Shown here piece by piece: positions 21,146 through 37,440 of a stretch of DNA of 64,000 nucleotides. This stretch comes from Saprospiraceae bacterium (GTDB taxonomy: Bacteria; Bacteroidota; Bacteroidia; Chitinophagales; Saprospiraceae). How positions within the stretch are numbered: position 1 is the stretch's first letter; every line of letters starts with the position of its first letter. Under the pieces are notes generated by a model, which did not search any database, was not told the DNA's origin, and saw only the letters and a list, made by a program, of their open reading frames with translations. Both the position numbers and the translations under genes were made by a program. The stretch spans positions 1 through 64,000 of the forward strand of contig JAEUUU010000110.1 in the NCBI GenBank assembly GCA_016787345.1, written 5' to 3'.

Positions 21146-22606
21146 TCAGTGTAAATTTCGAAGTGCGTCGCTTATTCTTTGCAGTTTTTCCGCCTGCTGT
21201 ACTTCTGTCGGTTGTGCGGCGCGTTCTGCGCAATCGGGTACGGAGCAGGATTCGCAAGTGGTATTGACGGTTTTTTGTAACAATGCAGGATCGTCGACCT
21301 GCGGAAAATGCCGACGCAGCGAATCATTGTGCAACAACCCGAGTGTAACGCTGACGTCGGGGCGCGTCGCCTGCGACATACTCAGGCAGAAATAAACCCG
21401 ATCGGTTTGCCAGTAGGCACTTTTTTGGGCCGTTACCAGAATGCCCTGGGGAGGCGACTGGCGGATTTGGCGCAGAATATCGATGGATATCCAGCGCCGG
21501 CAGTAGTGGTCGCCGTGCTCTGTTGCGTAGGGGCTTTGTTGTCCGCTGAGATGCAGTTCCTTGCTCATTTCGAAGCTGTCGAGGGTATTATTGCCCACCA
21601 TCCGGATAAAAAAGAGGTCTTTCAGCCCGAAATGAAAGGGTAGAATGTTGGTAAGCCGTTGCAGCAGCATTTCCGGCGTTACATCGAAGCGGTCGAGCAA
21701 ATCGAGCCAGTCGTCCGGCCGCCAATGGAGCAGGTTCGTCCACTGTCGCAACGAATCGGCCAGTACGTCCTGGTCCATCAGCAGGGCAGAAGAGAAGTAG
21801 GATGCTCGAAAGTTGTTGAGTAATTTGTCAAAATGCTCCGCCTGCTGAATGATCGTTTCAAACGGCCTGTTGTCGTGAATATTCAATGCCTGAAACCCGA
21901 TCTCGCGCCCGATCAGGAAATTCTCCTGTGCCGACGAGAGGCCGTGGTTAAGGTACAATGTGTTTTTGGCTGGTATGAAATAAGAGCGGATGCTCTGTAA
22001 ATCGGGCTCTCCGGCCAACACCTTGCGGTCGATGTCAATGCCGTAACATTCGGCCAGCGCCTTTTGAAGCGCTTCGGTTTTCAAGGCGTTCTGTTGATCC
22101 GCCCAGCCCTGCTGGCGCCGGAAAGCCTGGGCAGCCGACTCGATATCCGGAAAATAATTGTCGTGTAGCCCCTGATAGGAGCGCAAGGCGGCCTGGTGGA
22201 TGCTTTCCCGCGTCAGATGGTAGTTCCGTCCGATTTTTAAAACGGCGCCGATAAAAGCAGACACTTTTTCCGGGGAGGCCGCCAGCAATTCGATCACTTT
22301 TTCCGGCTTGAGGCCAAACATCTCCAGCGGGTAGATTTTGAATACATCCGATTCGAGCAGATCGATCACCGGCAGCAGTTTTTTTACGCTGCGCGGCGAA
22401 ACCAGCGTGTCGTAATCGGTTTCGAGGGCCTGGGCCAGGACGAGAATCTTGTCCTGTGACGGGTATTTTTTCCCGCTCTCCATATCGTGCAGATAGGAGA
22501 CCGTCGTGTTCGTCAGTGCGGCCAGTTGTTGCAGTGTAAGCCCTTTTTGCTGACGGAACAATCTGATTTTCAAGCCGAAAACCAAGTGCAGGTATTCTTT
22601 TCTCAT
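21146..22606 (-). CDS. RamB/ScfR-like XRE-family regulator of the glyoxylate genes
   Basis: 486 residues from the ATG at 22606. The N-terminal HTH (FGLKIRLFRQQKGLTLQQLA through the recognition helix region, about 8-63) is XRE type. The middle contains an IrrE/ImmA-like region in which the expected HExxH metalloprotease motif is degraded to REIGF. The C-terminus has the Cys-rich block CESCSVPDCAERAAQP, a pattern typical of short-chain-acyl regulators (ScfR/RamB/PrpC group). In Corynebacterium, RamB controls acetate and glyoxylate genes; here the gene is divergent from malate synthase and isocitrate lyase across a 134-bp gap, so direct control of that pair is the natural inference. A TTG 24 bases upstream (22630) is an alternative start. 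Confidence 0.86.
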   Translation of the reverse strand: MRKEYLHLVFGLKIRLFRQQKGLTLQQLAALTNTTVSYLHDMESGKKYPSQDKILVLAQALETDYDTLVSPRSVKKLLPVIDLLESDVFKIYPLEMFGLKPEKVIELLAASPEKVSAFIGAVLKIGRNYHLTRESIHQAALRSYQGLHDNYFPDIESAAQAFRRQQGWADQQNALKTEALQKALAECYGIDIDRKVLAGEPDLQSIRSYFIPAKNTLYLNHGLSSAQENFLIGREIGFQALNIHDNRPFETIIQQAEHFDKLLNNFRASYFSSALLMDQDVLADSLRQWTNLLHWRPDDWLDLLDRFDVTPEMLLQRLTNILPFHFGLKDLFFIRMVGNNTLDSFEMSKELHLSGQQSPYATEHGDHYCRRWISIDILRQIRQSPPQGILVTAQKSAYWQTDRVYFCLSMSQATRPDVSVTLGLLHNDSLRRHFPQVDDPALLQKTVNTTCESCSVPDCAERAAQPTEVQQAEKLQRISDALRNLH

Positions 22607-22672
22607 ACCGTTGTTTGTAATGACGGACAAAGCTAAGGCAGATTTCGTTGTTGAGAAAAAATAATTAATAGC

Positions 22673-22709
22673 GAAAATTTCTCTAAAAAAGAAAATTTCT
22701 TTATTTTTG
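22673..22709 (+). promoter_or_regulatory. aceB promoter with a candidate operator (direct repeat)
   Basis: GAAAATTTCT occurs twice, at 22673-22682 and 22691-22700, start-to-start 18 bp. It is directly followed by TATTTTTG (22702-22709), a Bacteroidota -7 box (TAnnTTTG), 32 bp before the aceB ATG. The -33 region falls inside the first repeat (22678-22681, TTTC), so a protein bound there would meet RNA polymerase. The ScfR/RamB-like product encoded on the other side of this gap is the obvious candidate ligand. Confidence 0.5.
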
Positions 22710-22740
22710 CCCTGTTATCCAAAACAAACAAGCCTCGTGT

Positions 22741-24366
22741 ATGAATACGGTATTCGACTATCCCTCCGTTTCTGCAGCTGCAAATGACCAGTTACTCGTC
22801 AGGGGACCGCTAAGCGGCCGTGCGGAACAAATACTCAGTCCGGGCGCCCTGGCATTTCTGTTGGCCCTTCATAAAAACTTTGAACCCCGACGGCAGCAAT
22901 TGTTGCAGGCCCGAAAAGCGCGTCAGGCCCGGCTCGATGCCGGTGAAGCGCTGGATTTCCCGCAAGAAACCCGCGCAATCCGCGAGTCGGAGTGGACAGT
23001 GGCGCCCCTACCTGCCGACTTGCGCGACCGGCGGGTAGAAATCACGGGGCCCGCCGAACGAAAGATGATGATCAACGCCCTGAACTCGGGCGCAAAAGTG
23101 TTCATGGCCGATCTGGAAGACAGTATGACGCCGAGCTGGCCGAACCTGATGGATGCCCAGGTCAATCTTTTCGATGCCGTTCGGGGCACGATCCGCTACG
23201 AAGATCTATCGAGCGGTAAACTTTACCGCCTGGGCCCCGAAACCGCTGTTCTAATTATGCGGCCCCGGGGCTGGCACCTCGACGAGGCGCATTTACGATA
23301 CCGTCAGGAGGCGCTGAGCGGAAGCCTGGTCGATTTCGGGTTGTATTTTTATCACAATGCCGAGGCACTGCTTTCCAAAGGAAGCGGCCCCTATTTTTAT
23401 CTGCCCAAGCTGGAGCACTACCTCGAAGCGCGGCTTTGGAACGATGTTTTCAATTTCGCGCAGGACTGGCTCAATATTCCGCGCGGCAGCATCCGGGCCA
23501 CGGTATTGATCGAAACGCTCCCGGCGGCCTTCGAACTCGATGAGATATTGTGGGAATTGCGCGAACACGCGGCCGGCCTCAACTGCGGCCGCTGGGACTA
23601 CATCTTCAGTTTTATCAAAAAAATGCGCACCAATCCGGCTTGTTTGTTGCCCGATCGGGCCGAAGTGACCATGACGACGCCTTTCATGCGGGCATATAGC
23701 CGGCGGGTTATTCAGGTATGCCACAGACGGGGATGCTCAGCCATTGGCGGTATGGCTGCCCAGATTCCGATCAGGAGCGATGTAGCGGCCAACGAGGCGG
23801 CCTTCGCCAAGGTGGCCGCCGATAAAATGCGCGAGGCGACCGACGGGCACGACGGCACCTGGGTGGCGCATCCCGGATTGGTGCCGCTGGCCCTCCGTAT
23901 TTTTAACGAACAGATGCCTACGCAAAACCAAATCAGCAGGAAACTCGATGATTTGAACGTCTCGGCCTCCGATCTGCTGCGTGTTCCCGCGGGTCACATC
24001 ACCGAGGACGGTATTCGGCTCAATATTCGTGTCGGTATCCAATACCTCGAACACTGGTTGCGCGGACAGGGCTGCGTCGCCCTCAACCACCTCATGGAAG
24101 ATGCGGCCACGGCAGAAATCAGCCGTTCACAGTTGTGGCAATGGCTGCGTTTTGGCGCTCGTTACGGGGCAGGGCAAACTCGGTTCACGCCAGATGAATA
24201 CCGCCGCCTGCGCGAAGAAGAACTCGCTCACATCCGTTTGGAAGGCGGTGCGAATGCCAACTCGTTGCTTATGGCCACCGAATTGTTCGACCAACTGGTG
24301 CTGGCTCCGCAGCTCGAAGATTTCCTCACCATACCCGCCTATCGCAAAATCACCAACATCCTTTAA
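22741..24366 (+). CDS. aceB: Malate synthase A
   Basis: 541 residues, the size of the A isoform (about 530-540; the G form is about 720). Condenses glyoxylate with acetyl-CoA to malate, the second step of the glyoxylate shunt. Signature blocks: [20 protein letters not shown] (metal-binding Glu/Asp region), [18 protein letters not shown] with the catalytic Arg, [40 protein letters not shown] and AHPGLVPLA. The ATG at 22741 is preceded by a TAnnTTTG promoter. Isocitrate lyase follows after 13 bp, so the two shunt enzymes are co-transcribed. Confidence 0.97.
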
Positions 24367-24379
24367 ATACGCGCTCACC

Positions 24380-25657
24380 ATGAACACATTCAACAACAAG
24401 GCAGAGGCCCTTAAAACCGAATGGGCTACCAATCCACGCTGGACAGGCATCCAGCGCCCGTATCAGGCAGAAGAAGTGCTCCGTTTGCGGGGAAGTGTCG
24501 AAATCGAGTACAGTCTGGCCCGTCGTGGGGCCCAAAAATTATGGTCGCTGCTGCACGATCGCCCCAATGTATCCGCGCTTGGCGCGCTCACGGGCAACCA
24601 GGCCATTCAGGAAGTGGCGGCCGGGCTGGATGCCATTTACCTGAGCGGCTGGCAGGTGGCGGCCGATGCCAATTTGTCGGGACAAATGTACCCCGATCAG
24701 TCGCTGTATCCGGCCAATTCGGTTCCGCAGGTTGTGCGCCGGATCAACAATGCTTTGATGCGCCGCGAGCAAATTCGTTCGGTCAACGGCGAGCCGTACC
24801 GCGACTGGCTGGCGCCGATCGTGGCTGATGCGGAAGCGGGTTTCGGGGGGAACCTGAACGCCTATGAATTGATGAAAGAAATGATTGAAGCCGGCGCCGC
24901 CGGTATTCACTTTGAAGACCAACTGTCGTCGGCCAAAAAATGCGGTCACCTGGGCGGCAAGGTGTTGGTGCCGACTCGGGAGGCGATCGAAAAACTCGTG
25001 GCTGCCCGTTTGGCGGCCGACGTACTCGACGTGCCCAGCATACTCATCGCGCGTACCGACGCCGAGGCGGCAACGCTTATCACTTCCGATATTGACGAAA
25101 GGGATCGGTATTTTGTCGAGGGCGCCCGTACGCCGGAGGGCTTTTACGGGTATAAAAATGGCCTGGAGGCCTGTATCGCCCGCTCGGTGGCCTATGCGCC
25201 CCATGCCGATTTGTTGTGGATGGAGACCTCACACCCCGATCTCGGCCTGGCCAGGGAGTTTGCCCAGGGCGTCCACGAAGTGTATCCCGGAAAAATGCTG
25301 GCATACAATTGTTCGCCCTCTTTCAACTGGGCTGCCCGGATGAGTACAGTAGAAATGGAAAGTTTCCGGGAGGATCTGGCAGCCCTGGGGTACAAATTCC
25401 AGTTTATCACCCTGGCCGGATTCCATGCGCTGAACACGTCCATGTTCGAGCTGTCGATGGCTTATGTGGAACGGGGCATGGCAGGTTTTTCTGCGCTGCA
25501 ACAACGCGAGTTTGGTTTGCAGGAGAAGGGGTTTACGGCTGTAAAGCACCAGAATTTTGTAGGGACCAGTTATTTCGATTTTGTTCAAAACACCGTTCAG
25601 CAAGGTCAGTCGTCGACGGTAGCCATGGCCGACAGCACGGAGATGGCGCAATTTTGA
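24380..25657 (+). CDS. aceA: Isocitrate lyase
   Basis: 425 residues, normal for prokaryotic isocitrate lyase; cleaves isocitrate to succinate and glyoxylate, letting carbon from acetyl-CoA bypass the decarboxylating TCA steps. [17 protein letters not shown] holds the catalytic KKCGH with Cys188. [20 protein letters not shown] and [13 protein letters not shown] supply metal- and substrate-binding residues. The ATG at 24380 is chosen over upstream in-frame starts, which would overlap aceB by hundreds of bases. It follows aceB by 13 bp. Confidence 0.97.
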
Positions 25658-25743: not shown

Positions 25744-25757
25744 TGGGATAAAACAGA

Positions 25758-26060
25758 ATGGATATGCCGCCCGATCTACCGTACAATTTTGCTTTTTTGG
25801 AATCCGCCACCGAAACGCTGCGGGCGATTGCGCACCCGCAACGCTTGCTGATCGTGGAGATGTTGTTTCAAAACCAGTCGATGAACGTAACCGAAATGTA
25901 TGAGCGCCTGGGGATCGAGCAGGCGGTGGCGAGTCATCATTTGCGTATTCTGAAAGACAGAGGGGTAGTGCAGGTGCGGCGCGATGGAAAGAACAGCTAT
26001 TACTCGCTGACCAGCCCGGAGTATTTTACCATTCTGGAGGTGCTAAATCGAGTGATCTAA
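25758..26060 (+). CDS. ArsR-family winged-helix transcriptional regulator
   Basis: 100 residues. ESATETLRAIAHPQRLLIVE is the ArsR-type first helix pair, MNVTEMYERLGIEQAVASHH followed by LRILKDRGVVQVRRDGKNSY is the HTH and wing. There are no Cys residues, so the metal-binding ELCVC site of ArsR/SmtB sensors is absent; it probably responds to another signal such as redox state or a metabolite. It sits between isocitrate lyase and the MFS symporter and ends in a strong terminator. Regulation of the flanking carboxylate genes is inferred from position only. A dimeric DNA-binding protein is expected. Confidence 0.85.
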   Translation: MDMPPDLPYNFAFLESATETLRAIAHPQRLLIVEMLFQNQSMNVTEMYERLGIEQAVASHHLRILKDRGVVQVRRDGKNSYYSLTSPEYFTILEVLNRVI

Positions 26061-26122
26061 GCGGTATTCAGTTTTTTATTTGGTTTTGGGTCGTGGAATA
26101 GGGTGGAGTTCAAAACATAAAA

Positions 26123-26157
26123 AAGGGGTGAAAGCCATCGTCAGGCTTTCACCCCTT
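26123..26157 (+). terminator. Terminator of the ArsR-family gene
   Basis: 14-bp perfect stem (26123-26136 with 26144-26157) around a 7-nt loop, then CGTTTTT. It lies 62 bp past the ArsR stop, followed by about 260 bp before the MFS gene. Confidence 0.85.
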
Positions 26158-26290
26158 CGTTTTTCATCGCGTAGTTAATGGTTGTTGTTCCGCCAAATCA
26201 TATTCTAAAACTGAACTTTATTTGGCCTTTCTTCCGAATAAATACAAAATATTTCCCCCATTCGACGCCCTTCCAAGAAAAATTTTCATC

Positions 26291-26348
26291 CTGATTTAAA
26301 AAAAATCAGATCAAAAGAGAAACGTATGTAGATGTCTATATACATTTG
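26291..26348 (+). promoter_or_regulatory. Candidate promoter and palindrome before the MFS gene
   Basis: TACATTTG at 26341-26348 fits the TAnnTTTG -7 box, but no clear -33 element is seen at the expected place. Upstream is the palindrome CTGATTT-AAAAA-AAATCAG (26291-26309), a possible operator. The rest of the 360-bp gap (26061-26420) is AT-rich with only the ArsR terminator in addition. Confidence 0.35.
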
Positions 26349-26420
26349 TCCGTCAGTAGTTCCTCCAAATAATCGCCTGTCAATTTTTTATTTCTCAACA
26401 TCAAAAACAAGTAAGACGGT

Positions 26421-27971
26421 ATGACCAGTTCATCTACACAAGCATCTTCCGAGAACAAAGGCCTCATGAAGGTAATCATGGCCTCCTCGGTTGGTACCCT
26501 GATTGAGTGGTACGACTTCTACATTTATGGAGCCATGGCGGTCATTATCGCCAAACAGTTTTTTCCGCAGGATAATCCTACGGCTGCGTTTTTGGCAGCC
26601 CTGGCCACTTTCGCCGCCGGTTTCGTCGTGCGTCCGTTCGGCGCTCTGGTGTTTGGCCGGATCGGCGATTTGATCGGCCGGAAGTACACCTTTCTGCTCA
26701 CGCTTTTGCTGATGGGCGGATCCACGTTTGCCATCGGCCTGGTGCCCGGCTATGCCAAAATCGGCATTTGGGCGCCGATACTCATCCTTTTGCTCCGTTT
26801 TATCCAGGGTTTGGCGCTGGGCGGCGAGTACGGCGGCGCTGCGACGTACGTGGCCGAGCACTCACCGGCCAACCGGCGGGGGTATTACACGGCCTACATC
26901 CAGACGACGGCTACTTTGGGCTTTTTCCTTTCGCTGGGTGTGATCCTGAGTACGCGCAAGTTTATGGGCGTGGAAGCATTCAACGACTGGGGCTGGCGGA
27001 TTCCGTTTATCGTGTCGGCTTTGTTGATTGCCATTTCGGTGTACATCCGTCTGCGCATGGCCGAGTCGCCCTTGTTTGCCAAGATCAAGAGCGAAGGCAA
27101 AGTGTCGAAGAACCCGCTGAAAGAGTCTTTTGCCCACAAATCCAACCTCAAAATGGTGCTGCTGGCCCTGTTTGCAGCCGTTATGGGTCAGGGCGTAGTG
27201 TGGTATACCGGCCAGTTTTACGCGCAGACCTTCATAGAGCGCACGCTATCGGTCGAATTTGAACAAGTGCGCTACCTGCTTTGCATCGCTATTCTGGCCG
27301 TGACGCCCTTCTTCCTCGTGTTTGGCGCCTGGTCGGACAAGATCGGCCGCAAGACCATCATGATGGCCGGTATGTTCCTGGCCATTGTAACCTACCGCCC
27401 GATCTACAAGGCCATGTACGCGCTGGGCGATCCGAAAGCCAAAACCGAAGTGGCGGAGAAAAGCAGCAAAGGCATTGCCTATGCCGTAAATGCTGCCGGT
27501 GATTCAACCATCACCACCACCACGGTATCGGCATTTACCGATGGTTCGACGCTGAAATTGGTGAAGAAGGAAACCGTGCTGGCCGACAAGTCGAAACCAG
27601 CCGTGAAGCCGGAAACAACCAAAACCTTCTGGCTCTCTTCATCCGGATTCTGGATGATGACCTTCTGGGTGTTTATTCAGATCATCTACGTCACCATGGT
27701 CTACGGCCCGATCGCTGCCTTCCTCGTGGAGTTGTTCCCCACCCGCATCCGTTATACTTCCATGTCGCTGCCTTACCACATCGGCAACGGTATTTTCGGT
27801 GGTCTGACGCCATTTATCGCCACACGCTTGTTCGATGCGTCCAAAACGACCGACAACCCGACCGGCGACCCCTACGTGGGGCTCTGGTATCCCATTCTGA
27901 TTGCCGGGGTATGCTTTATCCTCGGTATGTTGTACCTCCCTTCCAAGAATGACGAGGACGTAATGGATTAA
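26421..27971 (+). CDS. MFS metabolite:H+ symporter (MHS/ProP-like), probable carboxylate uptake
   Basis: 516 residues, 12-TM major facilitator of the metabolite:H+ symporter group. Diagnostic parts: SSVGTLIEWYDFYIYGAMAV (TM1 with the conserved Glu-Trp-Tyr-Asp), VRPFGALVFGRIGDLIGRKY (loop 2-3 motif), LRFIQGLALGGEYGGAATYV (TM4) and VELFPTRIRYTSMSLPYHIG (TM10-11). Unusually, about 65 hydrophilic residues, Lys/Thr-rich, are inserted around residues 335-402, between TM8 and TM9. Substrates in the family include proline/betaine, shikimate, citrate and alpha-ketoglutarate. The setting among glyoxylate and acyl-CoA synthetase genes suggests a short-chain or dicarboxylate. It is followed after 54 bp by a small membrane protein. 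Confidence 0.87.
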   Translation: MTSSSTQASSENKGLMKVIMASSVGTLIEWYDFYIYGAMAVIIAKQFFPQDNPTAAFLAALATFAAGFVVRPFGALVFGRIGDLIGRKYTFLLTLLLMGGSTFAIGLVPGYAKIGIWAPILILLLRFIQGLALGGEYGGAATYVAEHSPANRRGYYTAYIQTTATLGFFLSLGVILSTRKFMGVEAFNDWGWRIPFIVSALLIAISVYIRLRMAESPLFAKIKSEGKVSKNPLKESFAHKSNLKMVLLALFAAVMGQGVVWYTGQFYAQTFIERTLSVEFEQVRYLLCIAILAVTPFFLVFGAWSDKIGRKTIMMAGMFLAIVTYRPIYKAMYALGDPKAKTEVAEKSSKGIAYAVNAAGDSTITTTTVSAFTDGSTLKLVKKETVLADKSKPAVKPETTKTFWLSSSGFWMMTFWVFIQIIYVTMVYGPIAAFLVELFPTRIRYTSMSLPYHIGNGIFGGLTPFIATRLFDASKTTDNPTGDPYVGLWYPILIAGVCFILGMLYLPSKNDEDVMD

Positions 27972-28025
27972 ACCCGCACTGCAAACCGTTCTCCGACATT
28001 ATTAACAATACCAATTTTTCAAGAT

Positions 28026-28286
28026 ATGAACTCTCTCAAAAGAATATTAGGCTTTGTCTGGATCGCCCTGGCACTTGCCGCCATCTATCTGATGTTCCAA
28101 CGCGCCGGCCACGAAATCAATAAGGCGATAGCCGACAACAAAGCCGTGCTCGATACGCGCATGTTCTGGTATATCATCATCCCGATTTTTACGCCGATCA
28201 TGTTAGGGCTAACCCTGTTCGGCTGGTATGCCTGGAAAGGGGAATACGATGAAATTCCCCGCGATTCGGCGCACCTCGTTGATTAA
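28026..28286 (+). CDS. Small two-helix membrane protein (DUF6814-like) beside the MFS transporter
   Basis: 86 residues. Two hydrophobic segments, ILGFVWIALALAAIYLMFQR (about 5-25) and MFWYIIIPIFTPIMLGLTLF (about 46-66), separated by a charged linker rich in Asp/Lys. The composition and position fit the small proteins that regularly follow MFS transporters in Bacteroidota; the DUF6814 name is from memory of that family and not verified. It could be an accessory subunit or stabiliser of the transporter. No catalytic residues. Separated from the transporter stop by 54 bp and from the broken porin by 139 bp containing a strong hairpin. Confidence 0.72.
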   Translation: MNSLKRILGFVWIALALAAIYLMFQRAGHEINKAIADNKAVLDTRMFWYIIIPIFTPIMLGLTLFGWYAWKGEYDEIPRDSAHLVD

Positions 28287-28344
28287 AAAAAAGCCGGCTG
28301 TACCGGCGTAAAAGTCCATACCCACAGTTGATTGAATACCGGTT

Positions 28345-28371
28345 GTCAGCCGCGTGCCAAACGCGGCTGAC
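28345..28371 (+). other. Strong hairpin between the symporter pair and the porin
   Basis: Perfect 10-bp GC-rich stem GTCAGCCGCG / CGCGGCTGAC around TGCCAAA, with no T-run after it, so not a standard terminator. Its place between genes of one strand suggests an RNA processing or mRNA-stabilising structure that sets different levels for the two parts. A weaker GCCGG/CCGGC hairpin lies at 28293-28307. Confidence 0.55.
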
Positions 28372-28425
28372 CCGGGTTCCTTATGCTCTCCAATTTCATT
28401 CTTCTTTCAAATACTGCGCACAATC

Positions 28426-29871
28426 ATGAAATCTCGTTTACTGCTTTTTTCTCTTTTGCTCGCTGCCGGTATCCTGCGAGCCCAGCCAACAACTCCTCCG
28501 GCCCCCGCGCCGGCGCCTCCTCCACCGCCTCAAAAGGCAGCTGACCATTCCTACAAACCGCTTACGTTGAAATTGAACGAGGACGGCAGCAAATACGTAC
28601 GCTTCATCATGTGGCATCAGTTCTGGATGACCGCTACGCAAAACAACCCCGGCACCCGCGACGTAAAGGGCCAATTGATCGACGGTTCAGAGGGTTCCGA
28701 AAGCGCCTGGTCGACCGACATCGCCCTGCGTCGTTCGCGTTTTCTGGTGTATGCCCAGATTTCGCCGCGCGCCATGATCCTGACCCACTGGGGCATCAAC
28801 AACCAGAGCTTCATCGGCGGGGGTGTCGGAGCGGTAGGCTTCCAGGGCGCCTCAACCACGGGCGCCAACAACGGCGGTAAAAAGCCCCAGTTGTTCCTGC
28901 ATGATGCCTGGACGGAATACGAAATCGTAAAAGACAAATTGTACCTGGGCGCCGGCCTGATCTATTGGAACGGCATCAGCCGCCTGACCAGCAACAGCAC
29001 GCTCAACTTCATGACCCTCGATGCGCCGATCTTCAACTAGCCGACCATCGAAGCGACCGACCAGTTTGCCCGCCAGTTTGGTATTTATGCCAAAGGCCAA
29101 CTCGGCCGGCTCGATTACCGCCTTGCGCTCAACAAGCCCTTCGCCAACGGCGCCGCACCCGGTGCAGTGGCTAAAAACGGCGTGGCCGCCAACGTGCTCA
29201 CCGAGACATGGGCACAGGCTGGTTATGTCAACTGGATGTTCTGGGACAAGGAAAGCAACAAACTGCCCTTCTTCGTGGGCTCTTATCTGGGTACCAAGAA
29301 GGTATTCAACATCGGTGCAGGTTTTTACCGGCAGGCTGATGCTTCGCTTTACAAATCGACGGATGGCCGCGACTCCACTTTTCAGGATCACCTTTGCCTC
29401 GGCGCCGACGTGTACATCGATATGCCGCTGAACAAGGAAAAAGGAACCGCATTGAACTTTCTGGCCACATACTACAATTACAATTTCGGTACCAACTACA
29501 TCCGCAACGTCGGCATCCTCAACCTGCATGCCACTCCACCGCCTACCGACCAAAGCTGGGCCGGCGGCGGCAATTCGCAGCCGACCATCGGCACCGGCTC
29601 GATCATCTATGGCCAGTTGGGCTACCAATTGCCGAAGCTCAAAAACGGTACGGCTTTCATGCCTTACGTAACGGCTACGTACAAGGATTTTGACCGTTTG
29701 AAAGACCCCTCCACCCAATTCGGCGTAGGCCTCAACTACTTCGTCACCGGTCACCACGCCAAGCTGACGCTGGAATACCAGACCCGCCCGATTTACAAAG
29801 TTGACGGCACGGATATCGTTCGCGACGGTTCGAAGGGCGAGCTCATTCTGCAAACCCACATCTTCCTGTAA
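28426..29871 (+). pseudogene. Outer-membrane porin (phosphate-selective porin O/P-like), interrupted by an in-frame TAG
   Basis: A single reading frame of 482 codons encodes a signal peptide (MKSRLLLFSLLLAAGILRAQ), a Pro/Ala-rich linker and a beta-barrel ending HAKLTLEYQTRPIYKVDG...LILQTHIFL with a terminal Phe-Leu. It is broken by one TAG at 29038-29040 (codon 205): the frame reads LDAPIFN, stop, PTIEATDQFARQFGIYAKGQ, and both sides keep barrel-like sequence without any frameshift. One base (TGG to TAG, Trp) would restore it. The 204-residue product could not form the barrel. The next in-frame ATG is in MAKNGVAANVLTETWAQ at 29167. Position among symporter, sensor and acyl-CoA synthetase genes suggests a carboxylate channel. 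Recent mutation, sequence error and suppression remain open. Confidence 0.85.
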
Positions 29872-29937
29872 TCAACACGACTTGCTCTTTAAGTAGGGAG
29901 TTAAAGTGAGTAATAAATGTTGACGACCCTGTCGGCG

Positions 29938-29975
29938 CATGGGCAGGCCGGATTTCTTCCGGTCGGCCCATGTTT
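29938..29975 (+). terminator. Terminator after the porin gene
   Basis: Stem CATGGGC-A-GGCCGGA (29938-29952) with TCCGGTC-G-GCCCATG (29958-29972), one A/G mismatch, followed by TTT. It lies 66 bp after the porin stop and 35 bp before the next start codon. Confidence 0.65.
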
Positions 29976-30006
29976 CCGGCGGGATTCTTGTTTTAATTTT
30001 ACCGCT

Positions 30007-30201
30007 ATGTCCGATCGCAGGGAAGCCAATTTGCTGTTGTTGTTTATAACAGTACTTGTACTGCTCAACTATCCTTTGTTGAGCCTGGTAGATCGCCAGG
30101 ATCGCTGGCTGGGTTTCCCCGCCCTGTATTTTTACCTGTTTTTTGTTTGGCTGGGCCTGATCGTAGCAGTAGCTTTGGTGGTCCGAAAACGAAAAAAATA
30201 G
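30007..30201 (+). CDS. Small two-helix membrane protein upstream of the symporter-kinase
   Basis: 64 residues starting MSDRREANLLLLFITVLVLL. Two membrane segments (about 10-28 and 38-58) with a short loop DRQDRWLG, and a basic tail VVRKRKK placing the C-terminus in the cytosol. An in-frame ATG at 29917 was passed over because it would fall inside the terminator hairpin. It is 9 bp before the transporter-histidine kinase gene. Small proteins of this layout (DUF3311-like by arrangement) accompany sodium:solute symporter proteins in several phyla; here it may be a partner of the symporter-like half of the next product. No firm family match. Confidence 0.7.
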   Translation: MSDRREANLLLLFITVLVLLNYPLLSLVDRQDRWLGFPALYFYLFFVWLGLIVAVALVVRKRKK

Positions 30202-30210
30202 CGGCTTTTC

Positions 30211-32970
30211 ATGGCTTTAAGTTTGATCGTCCTTTGCTCGCTTGCCTATGTGATGTTGCTGTTTTACATCGCGTGGCGGGTCGATTTCAGCGCGGTAAGG
30301 GGTAAAAGCCCGGTCAATAACGCCTACGTATATGCTTTGTCGCTGGCGGTATATTGCACCGCCTGGACGTTTTTCGGCTCCGTCGGTCGCGCTACGACCG
30401 GCGGTTTGAGTTTTCTGGGGGTCTACCTGGGGCCATCGTTGCTGGCGCCGCTTTGGTTCGTATTGTTGCGCAAAATGATCCTGATTTCAAAGAATCAGCG
30501 AATCACCAGTATTGCCGACTTTATCTCTTCCCGCTACGGAAAAAGCGCCACACTGGGGGTAATCGTAACGGTTATCGCTGTATTGGGCATCGTACCCTAC
30601 ATCTCCATCCAGTTGAAAGCCGTCATGTTCGGGATCAATACCCTGACCCATTTTGGCCAGGCTGCTCCTGCTCCGCCGGCCGAATTGTGGCTCGACGGCG
30701 GATTTTGGGTCACGGTGGCAATGGCCATGTTCACGGCTTTTTTTGGTACCCGCAAACTGGACCCCAACGAACGGCACGAGGGCCTGGTCGCCGCGGTGGC
30801 CTTTGAAAGTATGGTCAAACTGGGCGCTTTTCTGGCGGTCGGGCTGTATGTGACCTTTGGCTTGTACAACGGTTTCGACGACCTGTTTACCCAAGCGCAG
30901 GTGCACGAAGCGACCCATAAAATGTTCAGCTTGCAGGACTCGGGTATCACGCCATTTTCGTGGAACATGCTCATGATCCTGTCTCTGTTTGCCATCATGC
31001 TGCTCCCGCGCCAGTTTCACATTGCCGTGGTGGAAAATACCTCGCCCCGGCATATTGCCAGGGCCATGTGGGTGTTTCCCTTGTACTTGCTGTTGATCAA
31101 TATTTTTGTTTTCCCGGTCGCTTTGGCGGGCAAAATGAATTTTGCAGCCAATATTCACCCCGATACTTATGTGCTCAGTCTGCCATTGGCCAACGGCGCC
31201 AACTGGCTGGCGCTCCTGGCGTTTATCGGCGGATTTTCGGCTGCGACCAGTATGATCGTCGTGGAGGCGACGGCGCTGAGCATCATGTTCAGCAACCATA
31301 TTGTCGTGCCGCTTTTGATCAAAACCCGCAGTTTTGGACAAGGTAAAGACCTGGTGAGCGGCGCCCACCGGCTGCTCGATATTCGCAGGGTCAGCATCCT
31401 GTTTATTCTGTTTATGGCTTACCTGTACCAGCGTTCGGTCGGTTCCACTTACGACCTGGTTTCGGTGGGCCTGATCTCCTTTACCGCGGCGGCACAGCTG
31501 GCGCCGGCTTTTATTGGGGCCATGTACTGGAAACGCGCCACGCATCAGGGCGCTGTGGCAGGGCTCGCGACGGGTTTTCTGGTGTGGGCGTATTGTTTGC
31601 CGATACCCAGTATGGCACAGGCGGGTATTGTTTCCCGCGATTTTATCGATCACGGACTTTGGGGCATCAGCGCGTTGAAGCCCTATGCCTTGTTCGGATT
31701 CAGCGGGGTCGATCCGGTTTCACACGCCGCGTTCTGGAGTTTGCTGCTCAATACCTGGGTATACGCGATCGTCTCGATCAATACCAAACCCAGCACCCTC
31801 AACCTCACGCAGGCCGACCTTTTTGTCAATATCCATAAATACATCAGCTGGCAGGACACCGACATCCTGAAACGGGAAGCCAAGATCGGCGACCTCAAAA
31901 ACATGCTAGATCGATTTTTGGGCGAAACGCGTACGCTGGCGCTTTTCCGCGAATATGAAACGAACAACGGCGTCTCGCTGACTAATCATCAGGTTGCGCA
32001 GGCTGATCTGGTCAATTTTGTCGAAACACAACTCTCGGGCGCGATCGGTGCTGCGTCGGCCCGATTGGTGATGGACAGCATTGTGAAAGAAGAGCCGATC
32101 ACACTCGATGAGGTGATGCGTATTCTCGAACAAACCCGCGAGGCGGTGGAATACAGCAGGGTAATGGTGGAGAAAAATACCGAACTCAAAACCCTGACCC
32201 TTCAACTGACAGCGGCCAATGAACAACTCAAAAATCTGGACCGCCTGAAAGCCGATTTTATCACCACCGTCACGCACGAGCTGCGCACGCCCGTCACCAG
32301 TATCCGTTCGCTCACCAAAATCCTGCTCGATTACCGTTCCGAACTGTCCGAAGAGAAAATTCAGGAGTATCTACAGATCCTGGTGGGAGAAAGCGACCGC
32401 ATCAGCCGCCTGATCAATCAGGTGCTCGATCTGGAAAAAATCCAGAGCGAGTCGATCGCCCCGGAAGCCCTGCAGTCCGTCGATATGGAAGCATTGGTGA
32501 GCCGTACAGCAACCGGTATGGAGCAGTTGTTTCGGGAAAAAGAAGTGGCATTTTCGGTTCAAAACGACGTGCCGGGCGCTTGCGAAGTGCAGGGCGATTA
32601 CGACCGGCTGGTGCAGGTCGTGTCCAATCTTTTGTCCAATGCGCTCAAATTCGTACCACAGGGAAGCGGTTGGGTGAAAGCGAGGTTGTTTCACCAAAAC
32701 GGCTTTTTGCACCTGCAAATTCTCGACAACGGTCCGGGTATCCCGCCGGAAAAACAGGCCATGATTTTTGAAAAGTTTACCCAACTGAGTCGCCGCGATA
32801 CGGGCAAACCACAAGGCAGCGGGCTTGGGCTTTTTATCACAAAAACAATCGTGGAACAACACGGCGGACTGCTCAGGGTGGACAGCAAGATAGGGGAGGG
32901 GGCCATGTTCGAAGTACGCCTACCACTGGATCGATTTGCCAAATCAACGTTTGCCGCTGCAAAAAACTAA
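30211..32970 (+). CDS. Sodium:solute symporter-histidine kinase fusion (CbrA/CrbS-like)
   Basis: 919 residues. Residues 1 to ~540 form an SSF/SLC5-type transporter-like domain with about 13 hydrophobic segments (YALSLAVYCTAWTFFGSVGR, TSIADFISSRYGKSATLGVI). A linker with a coiled-coil-like stretch (~620-675, KNTELKTLTLQLTAANEQLK) leads to the kinase: H-box FITTVTHELRTPVTSIRSLT with His689, N-box QVVSNLLSNALKFVPQ, G1 ILDNGPGIPPEKQ and G2 GSGLGLFITKTIVEQHGG. It is a membrane sensor that autophosphorylates on His. CrbS and MxtR, of the same design, control acetyl-CoA synthetase in Vibrio and Pseudomonas; two acyl-CoA synthetase genes follow here. A receiver gene lies 72 bp downstream. Confidence 0.93.
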   Translation: MALSLIVLCSLAYVMLLFYIAWRVDFSAVRGKSPVNNAYVYALSLAVYCTAWTFFGSVGRATTGGLSFLGVYLGPSLLAPLWFVLLRKMILISKNQRITSIADFISSRYGKSATLGVIVTVIAVLGIVPYISIQLKAVMFGINTLTHFGQAAPAPPAELWLDGGFWVTVAMAMFTAFFGTRKLDPNERHEGLVAAVAFESMVKLGAFLAVGLYVTFGLYNGFDDLFTQAQVHEATHKMFSLQDSGITPFSWNMLMILSLFAIMLLPRQFHIAVVENTSPRHIARAMWVFPLYLLLINIFVFPVALAGKMNFAANIHPDTYVLSLPLANGANWLALLAFIGGFSAATSMIVVEATALSIMFSNHIVVPLLIKTRSFGQGKDLVSGAHRLLDIRRVSILFILFMAYLYQRSVGSTYDLVSVGLISFTAAAQLAPAFIGAMYWKRATHQGAVAGLATGFLVWAYCLPIPSMAQAGIVSRDFIDHGLWGISALKPYALFGFSGVDPVSHAAFWSLLLNTWVYAIVSINTKPSTLNLTQADLFVNIHKYISWQDTDILKREAKIGDLKNMLDRFLGETRTLALFREYETNNGVSLTNHQVAQADLVNFVETQLSGAIGAASARLVMDSIVKEEPITLDEVMRILEQTREAVEYSRVMVEKNTELKTLTLQLTAANEQLKNLDRLKADFITTVTHELRTPVTSIRSLTKILLDYRSELSEEKIQEYLQILVGESDRISRLINQVLDLEKIQSESIAPEALQSVDMEALVSRTATGMEQLFREKEVAFSVQNDVPGACEVQGDYDRLVQVVSNLLSNALKFVPQGSGWVKARLFHQNGFLHLQILDNGPGIPPEKQAMIFEKFTQLSRRDTGKPQGSGLGLFITKTIVEQHGGLLRVDSKIGEGAMFEVRLPLDRFAKSTFAAAKN

Positions 32971-32977
32971 ATACACA

Positions 32978-33009
32978 TTGTCTGTCTTTTCCAAGTTTGC
33001 CTACTTTTA
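32978..33009 (+). promoter_or_regulatory. Possible promoter before the response regulator
   Basis: TTG at 32978-32980, 21 bp, TACTTTTA at 33002-33009, close to the Bacteroidota consensus but with A in place of the final G. It would let the receiver and acs genes be transcribed apart from the kinase gene. Confidence 0.3.
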
Positions 33010-33042
33010 TACCGGATTAATAAACAGACCAAAACTTAAGTC

Positions 33043-33429
33043 GTGCATACTCCCGATTCTGCTGCAAAGGTGCTTATCGTCGACGATGAACCCAATATTG
33101 TGGTTGCGCTCGAGTTCCTGCTTCAGCGGGAAGCTTATCAGGTACAAAAAGCGTACAACGGCGTTCAGGCATTGGAACTGGCCGCGGCATTTTTACCCGA
33201 TATTATTGTGCTCGACGTAATGATGCCGGGCATGGACGGATTTGAGGTCGCCCGCCGTGTGCGCCAGATGGAAGCGCTGGAAATGACCAAAATCGTATTC
33301 CTTACCGCAAAAGGCACACAACGCGACAAAGAGGCTGGCTATTCCAGTGGCGGAGAATACTATCTTATCAAACCCTTTGATAACGAAGTGTTTGTAAATA
33401 CGATCAACGAGATCATGGCCTACGGTTAA
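33043..33429 (+). CDS. Stand-alone receiver-domain response regulator (CheY-like)
   Basis: 128 residues consisting of a single REC domain. The acidic pocket is AKVLIVDDEPNIVVALEF (Asp14/Asp15), the phosphoacceptor is Asp58 in DIIVLDVMMPGMDGFEVA, and the Thr and Lys switch residues lie in FLTAKG and YLIKPFD. No DNA-binding or output domain follows: the protein ends 17 residues after KPFD. The start is GTG at 33043 (VHTPDSAAKVL), with no suitable ATG nearby. It is almost certainly the partner of the kinase upstream, but CrbR-type regulators normally carry a LuxR-type HTH, which is lacking, so it must act by protein contact or pass the phosphate on. Confidence 0.9.
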   Translation: MHTPDSAAKVLIVDDEPNIVVALEFLLQREAYQVQKAYNGVQALELAAAFLPDIIVLDVMMPGMDGFEVARRVRQMEALEMTKIVFLTAKGTQRDKEAGYSSGGEYYLIKPFDNEVFVNTINEIMAYG

Positions 33430-33568
33430 ATTGGCCCGCTTGCCTTTTTCAGTTTCTTTTGTCGGAAAAATGCCGCTTCCTGAAAAAGTTATTTCAATAA
33501 ATATAGGTATCTATATGTTTTGTTTCGTATCTTCGCAAGGTCATTAACCAAGTAATATCCGACCTGCC

Positions 33569-35455
33569 ATGACGTACGAAACGCTTTATCGCCGCAGTCT
33601 GGAAGACCCCATCGCCTTCTGGGAAGAACAAGCCCGCGCCATCGACTGGTACAGTTTCCCTCCCGAGATACTCACGACCGACGAAAACGGTTTTTACCGC
33701 TGGTACAAGGGTGGAAAGATGAATACGTCCTATCTGGCCCTCGATTACCATGTGGCCAACGGTCGCGCCGACCAGATCGCCCTGATCTACGATTCTCCGG
33801 TGACCAATACCTACCAAAAATATACCTACCGCGAATTGCTGGACGAAACCGCCCGTTTTGCCGGCGTACTGGCCGATCTGGGCGTGACGAAAGGCGACGG
33901 TGTCATCATCTACATGCCGATGATTCCGCAAGTAGTATTCGCCATGCTGGCCTGTGCCAGGCTTGGAGCGGTGCACTCGGTGGTTTTTGGCGGTTTTGCC
34001 GCGCACGAGTTGGCCCTGCGCATCGACGACGCCCAGCCCAAGGTATTGCTGACGGCCAGCGCCGGAAAGGAATTCGACAAGGTAATACCCTATCAACCCA
34101 TTGTGAATGAAGCGCTTGCGACGGCAAATCACAAAATCGACCATGTCGTGCTGTACCAGCGCAGTTTTGGCGACTGCGACCTTTCGCTTCCGGGTTACCA
34201 CGACTGGGAGACCTTGCGCAGCAAAGCCAAAGCGGCCGACTGCGTGCCCGTCGACGCTACCGATCCGCTGTACATCCTTTATACCAGCGGCACGACCGGA
34301 AAACCCAAGGGAATCGTGCGCGACAACGGGGGACATGCCGTGGCGCAGCGGTTCTCCATGCGATACGTTTACGGGGTCGAACCCGGCGAGGTGTACTGGG
34401 CAGCCAGCGACATTGGCTGGGCGGTCGGCCACTCCTACATTGTGTACGCGCCCTTGCTAACCGGCTGTACAACCATACTTTACGAAGGAAAACCCGTGCG
34501 AACACCCGACGCCGGCGCATATTGGCGGGTGATCGAACAATACAAGGTCAACGTTTTTTTTACGGCGCCCACCGGGTTCCGTGCGGTTAAAAAAGAAGAC
34601 CCGGATGGCCTTTTGCGCCAGGGCTATGATCTGGGCAGCTTGCGTCAGCAATTTCTGGCGGGCGAACGCTGCGACGCCGCCACACTTGAGTGGGCGCGCG
34701 AATTGCTGAAAATCCCGGTGATCGACCACTGGTGGCAAACGGAAAGCGGCTGGCCCATGCTGGCCAATATGGTCGGCACGGGCCTGTTTCCGATCAAGCC
34801 CGGCTCCTCCACCAAACCGGTGCCAGGGTTCGATATCCGCATCCTCGACGCCGATGGCGCACAGGCGCCGCCCAACCACGAAGGTGTGGTGGCCATCAAA
34901 TTACCCTTGCCGCCGGGCTGCCTGCCCACGCTCTGGAACAACCCGGAGCAATTCCGCGAAAGTTATCTCAATGCCTATCCGGGCTACTATTTCACCGGCG
35001 ATGGCGGTTATTTCGACGATGAGGGCTATTTCTATATCACCGGTCGTATCGACGACGTGATCAACGTCGCCGGACACCGCCTCAGCACCGCGGATATGGA
35101 AGAAATTGTTGCTTCGCACCCCGCCGTGGCCGAATGCGCGGTGATCGGGATTACCGACGAACTGAAAGGGCAGGTGCCGGTCGGGTATGTCGTACTGAAA
35201 AGCGGCGCCAATACGGACGAAAGCCAGTTGGAAGCCGACCTTATTAAAATGGTGCGCGACAAACTTGGCGCCGTGGCCTGTTTCCGATCGGCCAGGGTGG
35301 TGAAACGTTTGCCCAAAACCCGTTCCGGCAAGATTTTGCGCCGCACCATGCGCAACATCGTCGACGGCAAACCCTTCGCAGCCCCTTCGACCATCGAAGA
35401 TCCTACCGTACTGGACGAATTCAACCAGTTGGTTCACGACGCAAAAAGTCTCTGA
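33569..35455 (+). CDS. prpE: Propionyl-CoA synthetase (PrpE-like AMP-forming acyl-CoA ligase)
   Basis: 628 residues; activates propionate (or another short acid) to acyl-CoA through an acyl-AMP. The ATP motif ILYTSGTTGKPKGIVRDNGG, with the IVRDNGGHAVA extension seen in PrpE rather than in Acs (which has VVHTxGGY), is at about residues 235-255. YWAASDIGWAVGHSYIVYAP, WWQTESGWPM and the hinge YFTGDGGYFDDEGYFYITGR follow. The catalytic Lys588 lies in KTRSGKILRRTM, a site of acetyl-Lys control in this family. The C-terminus is full length. It is 139 bp after the receiver gene and 80 bp before acs. The PrpE assignment is from motif form and length. Confidence 0.88.
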   Translation: MTYETLYRRSLEDPIAFWEEQARAIDWYSFPPEILTTDENGFYRWYKGGKMNTSYLALDYHVANGRADQIALIYDSPVTNTYQKYTYRELLDETARFAGVLADLGVTKGDGVIIYMPMIPQVVFAMLACARLGAVHSVVFGGFAAHELALRIDDAQPKVLLTASAGKEFDKVIPYQPIVNEALATANHKIDHVVLYQRSFGDCDLSLPGYHDWETLRSKAKAADCVPVDATDPLYILYTSGTTGKPKGIVRDNGGHAVAQRFSMRYVYGVEPGEVYWAASDIGWAVGHSYIVYAPLLTGCTTILYEGKPVRTPDAGAYWRVIEQYKVNVFFTAPTGFRAVKKEDPDGLLRQGYDLGSLRQQFLAGERCDAATLEWARELLKIPVIDHWWQTESGWPMLANMVGTGLFPIKPGSSTKPVPGFDIRILDADGAQAPPNHEGVVAIKLPLPPGCLPTLWNNPEQFRESYLNAYPGYYFTGDGGYFDDEGYFYITGRIDDVINVAGHRLSTADMEEIVASHPAVAECAVIGITDELKGQVPVGYVVLKSGANTDESQLEADLIKMVRDKLGAVACFRSARVVKRLPKTRSGKILRRTMRNIVDGKPFAAPSTIEDPTVLDEFNQLVHDAKSL

Positions 35456-35535
35456 TACAGATTCAACAAACTTGAAAACACGGGTATCATTACCCCCGTT
35501 TACACACACTTTTCAATGATCATACCTTTACCGTT

Positions 35536-37440
35536 ATGAGTTTACAGATCAAAACCCTCGACGAATACCGGCAAGTTTATACTCGTTCCGTGGCCGATCC
35601 GGAAGGCTTCTGGGCCGAACAAGCTGCTGAATTTCAGTGGAAAAAGCCGTGGAAACAAGTACTTAAATGGAATTTCCGCGAACCCCGGATCAAATGGTTC
35701 CTGGGCGGAAAACTCAATATCACTGAAAATTGCCTCGACCGTCATCTGGAAAAACGCGGCAAGCAGGTTGCCCTGATCTGGGAACCCAATGATCCGTCCA
35801 AAAAAGCGCGCAAGATCACTTACAAGCAATTGTATGCGCAGGTTTGCCAGTTTGCCAACGCCCTGAAAGCGCAGGGTGTGAAAAAAGGCGACCGGGTCTG
35901 TATTTATATGCCCATGACGCCCGAACTGTCGGTGGCCCTCCTGGCTTGTGCCCGCATCGGCGCCATTCACTCGGTGGTTTTTGCGGGCTTCTCCGCGGTG
36001 TCGCTGGCCGACCGGATCAAAGATGCCCATGCGACGGTGGTGCTGACCTCCGATTACAATGCCCGGGGCGCTAAAAACATTCCAGTGAAAACGGTCGTCG
36101 ACGAGGCCCTCGGACTGGGTTGCGATACCGTCAAAACCGTCATTGTACATCAAAACACCGGCGATCCCGTCAAAATGATGGAAGGACGCGACATCTGGTG
36201 GCATGATGCGATTAAAGGCAAGCGCAAATCGTGCAAAGCGACGACCATGGACTCCGAGGATATGCTGTTTATTCTCTACACCTCAGGCTCTACGGGCAAG
36301 CCCAAAGGTGTGGTGCATACTCATGGCGGATACATGGTGTACACGGATTTTACCTTTCGCAACGTATTTCAATACCAGGAAGGCGACGTGTACTGGTGTA
36401 CGGCCGACATCGGCTGGATCACCGGCCACTCCTACATCCTGTACGGTCCGCTGCTTGCCGGCGCTACGACGATGATGTTCGAAGGCGTGCCTACCTACCC
36501 CGATGCCGGCCGCTTTTGGGATGTAATTCAACGCCATAAAGTCAATATTTTCTACACGGCGCCCACCGCTATCCGCGCCCTCATGGCCGCGGGCGATCAG
36601 TGGATCAACAATCGCCGCATGCCCTCGCTTCGCGTACTCGGTACGGTCGGCGAACCGATCAACGAAGAAGCCTGGCATTGGTACAATGAAAAAGTGGGTA
36701 AAAAACGCTGCCCCATCGTCGATACCTGGTGGCAAACGGAAACCGGCGGCATCCTGATTTCTCCTATCGCCGACGTAACACCTACCAAACCCTGCTTTGC
36801 CACCCTGCCGCTGCCGGGTGTGCAACCCTGCCTGGTCGATGCCAGCGGCAAAGAGATCACCGGCAACGACGTGGAGGGGATGCTTTGTATCAAATTCCCC
36901 TGGCCCAGTATCCTGCGCACCACCTACGGCGACCACGAGCGCTGCCGTACCAACTATTTTGCCGCGTTCAAAAACCTCTATTTCACCGGCGACGGCGCCC
37001 GCCGCGATGCCGACGGCTATTACCGGATCATCGGCCGCGTCGACGACGTCATCAACGTTTCAGGCCACCGCATCGGCACGGCCGAGGTGGAGGATGCTAT
37101 CAACAAAACGCCGGGTGTGGTAGAATCGGCCGTGGTGGGTTTCCCGCACGACATCAAAGGTCAGGGTATCTATGCCTACGTCATTGTAAACGACCGGCTC
37201 GAAGATGCTGCTGCATTCCGGCAAAAAGTCGTGGATACGGTTACCAAACAAATCGGCCCGATCGCCAAACCGGACAAAATTCAGATCGTATCCGGTTTGC
37301 CCAAAACGCGCTCCGGCAAGATTATGCGCCGTATCCTGCGCAAGGTTGCCGAAGGCGACACCTCCAATCTGGGCGATATTTCCACCTTGCTCAACCCCGA
37401 GGTAGTAGAAGAAATCAAAGTTGGCGCTTCCAGGGTTTAA
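35536..37440 (+). CDS. acs: Acetyl-CoA synthetase (AMP-forming)
   Basis: 634 residues, as for Acs (about 650). Converts acetate, ATP and CoA to acetyl-CoA. Motifs: ILYTSGSTGKPKGVVHTHGG (P-loop region), DVYWCTADIGWITGHSYILY, VDTWWQTETGGILISPI, and YRIIGRVDDVINVSGHRIGT. Lys595 in LPKTRSGKIMRRILRKVAEG is the usual acetylation target. WDVIQRHKVNIFYTAPTAIR is also Acs-like. Its product feeds the glyoxylate pair aceBA, 10 kb away in the same island. A weak ACGGG/CCCGT hairpin stands in the 80-bp gap after prpE; a terminator follows. Confidence 0.96.
   Translation: MSLQIKTLDEYRQVYTRSVADPEGFWAEQAAEFQWKKPWKQVLKWNFREPRIKWFLGGKLNITENCLDRHLEKRGKQVALIWEPNDPSKKARKITYKQLYAQVCQFANALKAQGVKKGDRVCIYMPMTPELSVALLACARIGAIHSVVFAGFSAVSLADRIKDAHATVVLTSDYNARGAKNIPVKTVVDEALGLGCDTVKTVIVHQNTGDPVKMMEGRDIWWHDAIKGKRKSCKATTMDSEDMLFILYTSGSTGKPKGVVHTHGGYMVYTDFTFRNVFQYQEGDVYWCTADIGWITGHSYILYGPLLAGATTMMFEGVPTYPDAGRFWDVIQRHKVNIFYTAPTAIRALMAAGDQWINNRRMPSLRVLGTVGEPINEEAWHWYNEKVGKKRCPIVDTWWQTETGGILISPIADVTPTKPCFATLPLPGVQPCLVDASGKEITGNDVEGMLCIKFPWPSILRTTYGDHERCRTNYFAAFKNLYFTGDGARRDADGYYRIIGRVDDVINVSGHRIGTAEVEDAINKTPGVVESAVVGFPHDIKGQGIYAYVIVNDRLEDAAAFRQKVVDTVTKQIGPIAKPDKIQIVSGLPKTRSGKIMRRILRKVAEGDTSNLGDISTLLNPEVVEEIKVGASRV

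Follow-up and report, generated by a model that had tools for sequence, protein, structure and literature searches.

A probable acetate/propionate uptake, sensing and activation module beside a separate glyoxylate cassette in a Saprospiraceae genome

The acetate switch CrbS/CrbR (MxtR/ErdR) of Vibrio and Pseudomonas ties an SLC5-STAC sensor histidine kinase to acs and an acetate-type symporter. In the parts of PMC5436829, PMC5715377 and PMC7918813 drawn on here, its regulon includes the symporter ActP with a DUF485 membrane protein, and the kinase carries a PAS domain and a C-terminal receiver (REC) domain (PMC7918813). Two further systems are described in portions of other papers. In Pseudomonas, the small hydrophobic protein CbrX is encoded directly before the SLC5-STAC kinase CbrA in an overlapping or touching frame (PMC13022988, PMC6591292), and CbrA has a PAS domain, recognises histidine and signals to the AAA+ activator CbrB (PMC13022988). 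In Sinorhizobium, the pyruvate system RpuS/RpuR consists of a hybrid SLC5-STAC kinase and a LuxR-type regulator, and controls the monocarboxylate permease gene mctP, which has a small DUF3311 neighbour (PMC9100948). Kinases of the SSS type are already known in Bacteroidetes, since a passage of PMC7918813 notes them there from database analysis. In this study, we analysed a 16-kb stretch (positions 21146-37440) of a 64,000-nucleotide region of contig JAEUUU010000110.1 from Saprospiraceae bacterium, hereafter the window, in which a kinase of this type lies among genes for carboxylate uptake and activation and for the glyoxylate shunt. The stretch is two modules and not one island: module A (21146-25657) comprises a RamB-like gene, aceB and aceA, and module B (25758-37440) contains the remaining genes. 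We consider it likely that module B is a pathway-specific module for uptake, sensing and activation of acetate/propionate, and that module A is an independent glyoxylate cassette under RamB control. In the open-licence PMC literature we found no mention of DUF6814, or of DUF4212 together with acetate, and, in titles and the starts of abstracts, no description of this Bacteroidota locus or of an InsA-type regulator of such a locus.

All genes named in the first-pass annotation were found in their places by domain and curated-model searches. The features are as follows.

21146-22630, minus strand: RamB/ScfR-like regulator (module A), with Pfam HTH_3 and Peptidase_M78 domains and a C-terminal C-X2-C-X4-C motif
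22673-22699: putative RamB operator in the ramB-aceB intergenic region, formed by two GAAAATTTC boxes with a spacing of 18 bp (pattern search)
22741-24366, plus strand: aceB, malate synthase A (module A; TIGR01344)
24380-25657, plus strand: aceA, isocitrate lyase with KKCGH motif (module A; PRK15063)
25758-26060, plus strand: ArsR-family regulator, in the regulator slot of module B (domain/model search)
26326-26341: putative ArsR operator preceding the MFS gene, a palindrome-like site ATGTAGATGTCTATAT next to a TAnnTTTG-like -7 box
26421-27971, plus strand: MHS-type MFS symporter, TIGR00883-like (376 bits; cut-off 443)
28026-28286, plus strand: DUF6814 small membrane partner of the MFS protein (domain search)
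28426-29871, plus strand: outer-membrane porin, interrupted in this assembly by TAG at 29038-29040 (alignment, predicted model)
30007-30201, plus strand: CbrX-like small membrane protein (position before the kinase)
30211-32970, plus strand: SLC5-STAC sensor histidine kinase (profile match, HisKA, HATPase_c)
33043-33429, plus strand: stand-alone receiver (REC) without an output domain (domain search, alignment)
33501-33516: putative ArsR operator preceding prpE, a palindrome-like site ATATAGGTATCTATAT
33569-35455, plus strand: PrpE-like AMP-forming acyl-CoA synthetase (curated models)
35536-37440, plus strand: Acs, acetyl-CoA synthetase (TIGR02188)

Module B was compared across 39 Bacteroidota kinase loci. 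The loci come from 16 fetched places and from the 80 best among 584 matches confirmed in one kinase scan, and the set is therefore skewed to kinases like that of the window. The 39 include an identical pair (L029/L104) and a same-species pair (the window and L024); L033, titled Chloroflexi, was excluded. Genes were counted to about 11.5 kb from the kinase or to the contig end, and several contigs end early. The porin and the CbrX-like protein are each present in 36 loci, REC in 37, PrpE in 25 and Acs in 24. One ligase or both are present in 30, and three of the nine loci without a ligase end less than 600 bp from the kinase. The transporter slot holds an MFS symporter in 22 loci (with DUF6814 beside it in 21) and a DUF4212-SSS pair in 15, both in none, and is empty in L027, whose contig ends early, and in L085. 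On a kinase tree of 46 rows, nine of which have an unusual letter make-up, the transporter label changes five times by parsimony and four to five times over bootstrap trees, with at least two changes forced by well-supported branches. Model searches place the SSS protein in the VC_2705 family of symporters with a small subunit. Because the two transporters swap repeatedly in one slot, the MFS-DUF6814 pair would carry a substrate of the kind that the VC_2705-type symporter carries, and the swap is the best evidence for this putative shared substrate. The neighbouring genes suggest that the VC_2705-type symporter carries acetate, and the genes of module B probably serve uptake, sensing and activation of acetate-like acids. 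Module B might instead serve another substrate, such as pyruvate, an amino acid or a dicarboxylate, with acs and prpE as passengers; MHS transporters are diverse, and SLC5-STAC kinases include CbrA for histidine and RpuS for pyruvate (in parts of PMC13022988 and PMC9100948). We regard this as unlikely, given the acetyl/propionyl-CoA synthetase-like gene near the kinase in those 30 loci and the exchange of the transporter with a VC_2705-type symporter.

The kinase was assigned by a profile of eight kinases, positions 4-620 of which align with residues 8-590 of chain 10ed_A (E 5.8e-102); a single-sequence search covered just query residues 3-469. From its length and domains, we infer that entry 10ed, named only 'histidine kinase', is the CbrA SLC5-STAC construct described in part of PMC13022988. 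HisKA and HATPase_c follow the SLC5-STAC part, the STAC portion being placed by the 10ed_A alignment, and the protein is thus an SLC5-STAC histidine kinase. Pfam SSF gave no match on the full kinase and 21.2 bits on its N-terminal part (cut-off 22.8). Neither a PAS domain nor a fused receiver was found in the full-length kinase by Pfam up to E 5, which sets it apart from CrbS/MxtR. The 'small membrane protein' of the first-pass annotation is present, yet it is not an unrelated gene: a CbrX-like protein lies directly before the kinase in 36 of the 39 Bacteroidota loci and in 49 of 58 other loci. Of the former 36 loci, 18 have overlapping frames and 30 have the two frames no more than 15 bp apart (the gap in the window is 9 bp). 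A small hydrophobic protein whose gene overlaps or touches that of the kinase reproduces the CbrX-CbrA arrangement, a likeness by position and type. Assignment of the CbrX-like protein to DUF3311 was rejected (E 0.9, not significant).

The neighbouring REC has 128 residues with the conserved acidic pair, phosphoacceptor Asp and Lys. No LuxR-type output domain like that of CrbR was found on it, no search for a LuxR-type partner at other places of the genome having been made, and eight aligned receivers consist of the receiver domain alone. This architecture would suit a REC that acts directly on the adjacent acyl-CoA synthetase and not via transcription, as would locus L098 (12739-15030; a Chitinophagaceae metagenome-assembled genome, MAG), where REC and the PrpE-like ligase form a single 763-residue open frame. 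Such direct action is nevertheless rather unlikely: the fusion occurs in one of 39 loci, in a MAG, where it may stem from a lost stop codon or from misassembly, and REC stays with the kinase even where no ligase comes after. The fusion was also dropped as a general rule on the count of this single locus, further genomes not having been searched.

The glyoxylate genes behave differently from module B. The kinase was searched in 99 class-level and 119 same-order genomes and was found in eight and 11, respectively. AceA is present in 31 of the 119 and together with the kinase in two (Fisher p = 0.73); the two are linked solely in the window, and in G201 they lie on separate contigs. Among the 39 Bacteroidota loci, AceA is near the kinase in three (the window, same-species L024 and L085), as is AceB (the window, L032 and L085). 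In the 11 AceA places obtained from order relatives, AceB is never farther than about 3 kb from AceA, and a RamB-like gene was found in six; module A is therefore a unit of its own. In L028, the GDSL gene stands directly beside arsR, oriented as in the window, with no ramB-aceBA between them. This arrangement fits a gain of the module A cassette by insertion at that junction in the lineage of the window; the alternative is its loss from L028. The modules also have separate DNA sites: the palindrome of module B (see below) was not found at the aceB promoter, which has repeated boxes of its own. The GAAAATTTC box pattern, derived from the window and L032, gave one match against none in 100 shuffles.

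The first-pass annotation had read the whole 16 kb as one functional unit, to be refuted if the blocks were unlinked in near relatives. That is the case for the glyoxylate shunt, and the conserved unit is largely refuted; what stands is the transporter-sensor-activation part, which is conserved as a module. Metabolic logic favours a single conserved unit that includes the shunt, as does the proximity of the modules elsewhere. In L085 (5000-12700; a Flammeovirgaceae MAG), AceA-AceB-RamB lies directly upstream of CbrX-kinase-REC, and in L032 module A lies about 5 kb beyond acs. Against the joint occurrence in two of 119 genomes, the linkage in the window only, the separate sites and the adjacency of the GDSL gene and arsR in L028, we judge this single unit to be distinctly improbable. 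Since L085 and L032 hold other arrangements, the pairing of A and B probably arose more than once; it may be functionally favoured, yet it is not conserved.

Module A looks like an ordinary ScfR-type glyoxylate cassette. AceB scores 772 bits against TIGR01344 (cut-off 594.5) and AceA 720 bits against PRK15063 (cut-off 562). The regulator combines a helix-turn-helix (HTH) domain, an IrrE/M78-like domain and the C-X2-C-X4-C motif, as expected of the ScfR/RamB type, and reaches 23 bits on the NCBIfam RamB model NF038139 (cut-off 700), which does not make it a RamB equivalog. Its start is more likely the ATG at 22606 than the TTG at 22630.

The regulator slot of module B is occupied in two ways. 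ArsR is linked to module B in nine of the 39 loci and an IS1-InsA-like gene in 21, both in none; neither is nearby in nine. The palindrome and tandem patterns used below were both set by eye from these loci, before counting. A near-ATATAGATATCTATAT palindrome lies upstream of the MFS gene in seven loci and of prpE in five (the window and L024 counted), and at the MFS promoters it directly adjoins a -7 element that resembles TAnnTTTG of the Bacteroidota promoter consensus. The window holds two sites versus 0.02 expected; its 5.28-Mb genome has 11 with up to three mismatches, of which the only two with up to two mismatches are those at the MFS and prpE promoters. With up to two mismatches, the palindrome occurs in 15 of the 18 loci without the InsA-like gene (the others being L032, L085 and L112) and in none of the 21 InsA loci, and it was not found in any of 11 AceA loci even at three. 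With up to one mismatch, four of the five InsA-free genomes have it at the island (G000, G207, G201 with two, and G099 with one more elsewhere) and G085 has none. G137, whose ArsR is linked and whose InsA-like gene is not, has one match outside the island; among 11 InsA genomes, three have one elsewhere and none in the island. A three-mismatch palindrome on contig C12 (L126) was discarded, as the surrounding ORFs show no connection. After the window's own ArsR, the best ArsR scores among the 17 kinase-positive genomes belong to the other four InsA-free genomes (E 3.5e-30, 2.7e-28 and 1.6e-25 for the unlinked genes of three of them; 1.6e-19 for the linked gene of G099), although G099 is barely ahead of G150 and G137 (7.3e-19 and 8.6e-19).

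The InsA-like zinc-ribbon/HTH gene (L018 5742-6167 and 20 other Bacteroidota loci) precedes the porin at the same position and in the same orientation in all 21 loci, and a tandem repeat often lies upstream of it. Of the 17 kinase-positive genomes, 12 have a match above 180 bits, one each; the 198 or 199 other genomes have none (two samples, kinship uncorrected). The kinase-positive genomes without one are G000, G085, G207, G201 and G099, and the match of the exception G137 scores 188 bits. The repeat unit TGCT[ACT]A-N4-6-TATA occurs 46 times in the 21 InsA loci versus 10.9 expected. The counts in the ArsR loci (3; 2.7 expected), other loci (1; 3.9), AceA loci (3; 3.1) and 16 proteobacterial loci (0; 2.0) served as controls. 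Two copies stand 18-19 bp apart in 14 of the 21 InsA loci, upstream of the insA-like gene in 13 and between it and the porin in L086. In a genome-wide tandem search of the 17 genomes, the best match is the island site in seven of the 11 that carry a strong InsA-like gene but lack a linked ArsR (exact in G076, G209 and G021; one mismatch in G058, G097, G060 and G092). G150 has an island site with two mismatches and a one-mismatch match elsewhere, and no island site was found in G121, G133 or G158; chance-like two-mismatch matches occur in nearly every genome, 16 of 17 having some match. A predicted model of the InsA-like protein has a predicted local distance difference test score (pLDDT) of 80 and a predicted template modelling score of 0.54; its best Foldseek matches were PH0140 (E 0.026) and then ST1022, the rest being Lrp/AsnC-type, and at such an E-value we claim no fold.

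It is very improbable that the InsA-like gene is a mere transposon remnant. Its protein does match the NCBIfam IS1 transposase model at 78 bits, under the cut-off of 100, and weaker InsA-like matches of up to 122 bits occur in kinase-negative genomes, 11 of them in G047. The IS1 match is, however, limited mainly to the N-terminal zinc-ribbon/HTH part, the strong matches are single and confined to kinase-positive genomes, the place before the porin is constant, and eight of the sequences are 58-88% identical to a ninth. On the kinase tree, where ArsR-linked and palindrome-bearing loci share one label and L085 and L112 are unlabelled for the regulator, the regulator/site label changes once, and the branch concerned has full support. 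Among the 39 loci, each of the two transporters is found with each of the two regulators. ArsR with the palindrome and the InsA-like protein with the tandem repeat are candidate regulator-operator pairs that differ together between the branches. On balance, we lean towards the view that an IS1-InsA-type zinc-ribbon/HTH protein was domesticated in one large Bacteroidota branch as a dedicated, autoregulated switch of the acetate/propionate module. Its tandem operator would consist of TGCTAA-N5-TATA twice, 19 bp apart. Regulator and operator would have been exchanged as a pair for ArsR and ATATAGATATCTATAT between this branch and that of the window, the SLC5-STAC kinase and its output-less receiver staying in place.

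The porin gene is also present, as first annotated, although its frame is broken in the window by the in-frame TAG, either a nonsense allele or an assembly error, and the window porin may be non-functional. The frame is intact in L024, whose kinase is 99% identical to that of the window, and in 11 other porins aligned with it. Family searches gave no family name, and the predicted barrel comes from an AlphaFold2 model of the L024 porin (mean pLDDT 73), which consists mostly of strands. Foldseek matched this model to OmpF (4.9e-10), OprO (6.3e-10) and DcaP (3.3e-9), with TM-scores of 0.44-0.47 by query length and 10-12% identity. Of the two ligases, Acs scores 968 bits against TIGR02188 (cut-off 725), as an AcsA protein should. 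The gene first annotated as prpE is nearer PrpE (742 bits on PRK10524, cut-off 955; 695 bits on TIGR02316, cut-off 827) than Acs (652 bits), and as it stays under both PrpE cut-offs we call it PrpE-like.

Other genes were noted around these loci. Downstream of acs in the window, carbonic anhydrase and a SulP transporter are encoded on the opposite strand (37685-40046), and the same pair is near module B in L078. Upstream lie DsbD-like, FixH and CcoG/FixG-like genes (16890-19621) and a gene for an alpha-2-macroglobulin-like protein of 2123 residues (10259-16630). A cNMP-CBS-DUF294 protein and a DnaQ-like exonuclease (L018 15590-18135 and similar) are encoded near the kinase in nine of the 39 Bacteroidota loci and in many other loci.

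We propose the following working for the two modules. The acid would enter via the porin and cross the inner membrane by the MFS-DUF6814 symporter, or by DUF4212-SSS in other lineages, and Acs and the PrpE-like ligase would activate it. The CbrX-associated kinase may sense the acid or its flux and phosphorylate the stand-alone REC, whose output could be another regulator, a ligase (compare the fused frame of L098) or a relay. Separately, ArsR in the window's clade would occupy the two palindromes, so that the MFS and prpE promoters are repressed jointly. Module A would consume acetyl-CoA under RamB control. Several observations weigh against this proposal. The MFS subfamily of the symporter carries many substrates, L085 has the kinase and REC with no match to a porin, MFS, SSS or ligase, and the closeness of A and B in L032 and L085 hints at some coupling. 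A linked ArsR is found in only nine of 39 loci; L032 keeps ArsR but has three-mismatch sites only, and the palindrome was found neither at the window's own arsR promoter nor, with up to three mismatches, in the 1.5 kb preceding the unlinked arsR homologues of G207, G201 and G085. Moreover, the palindrome consensus was drawn by eye from the loci under study, and because regulator and operator change only once on the tree, their contrasts between loci are not independent evidence.

Three features of module B are unusual: two unrelated symporter/small-partner pairs replace each other repeatedly in one slot, regulator and candidate operator differ together between two branches, and the receiver next to an SLC5-STAC kinase is without an output domain. 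The slot exchange suggests that the uncharacterised MFS-DUF6814 pair shares its substrate with the pair that replaces it. Cultured hosts, namely Spirosoma, Pontibacter, Emticicia and Anditalea, make these features testable.

Among known systems, IS1 InsA (zinc ribbon and HTH) resembles the relatives' alternative regulator, whose match to the IS1 transposase model covers the N-terminal part. That regulator differs in occurring as a single strong copy per genome, in its fixed place in module B and in a C-terminal extension of its own, and no transposase domain was found on it. The module A regulator shares C-X2-C-X4-C with MtPrpR (in part of PMC6765138), and the module A layout is comparable to that of Paracoccus RamB, where, in the portion of PMC10370305 used here, the regulator adjoins the glyoxylate operon with two near-identical boxes. 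Unlike that RamB, the module A regulator scores low on the RamB model, and its box binding is putative. Module B resembles RpuS/RpuR in joining an SLC5-STAC kinase to a carboxylate permease with a small neighbour, and differs in its probable substrate, its non-hybrid kinase and its output-less receiver; acs was not seen in the Sinorhizobium locus as given in part of PMC9100948. The position of the CbrX-like protein is that of CbrX before CbrA, while the PAS domain, CbrB signalling and histidine recognition of CbrA set that kinase apart. Module B is closest to CrbS/CrbR in tying an SLC5-STAC kinase to acs and an acetate-type symporter, here by adjacency only, where CrbS/CrbR controls acs transcription. 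In contrast to CrbS/CrbR, the kinase is without PAS and C-terminal REC domains, a stand-alone REC replaces the LuxR-type regulator, and the genes form one cluster with a porin and an ArsR or InsA-like regulator. With these differences, module B may be regarded as the Bacteroidota counterpart of the CrbS/CrbR acetate switch, and it offers a testable wiring plan.

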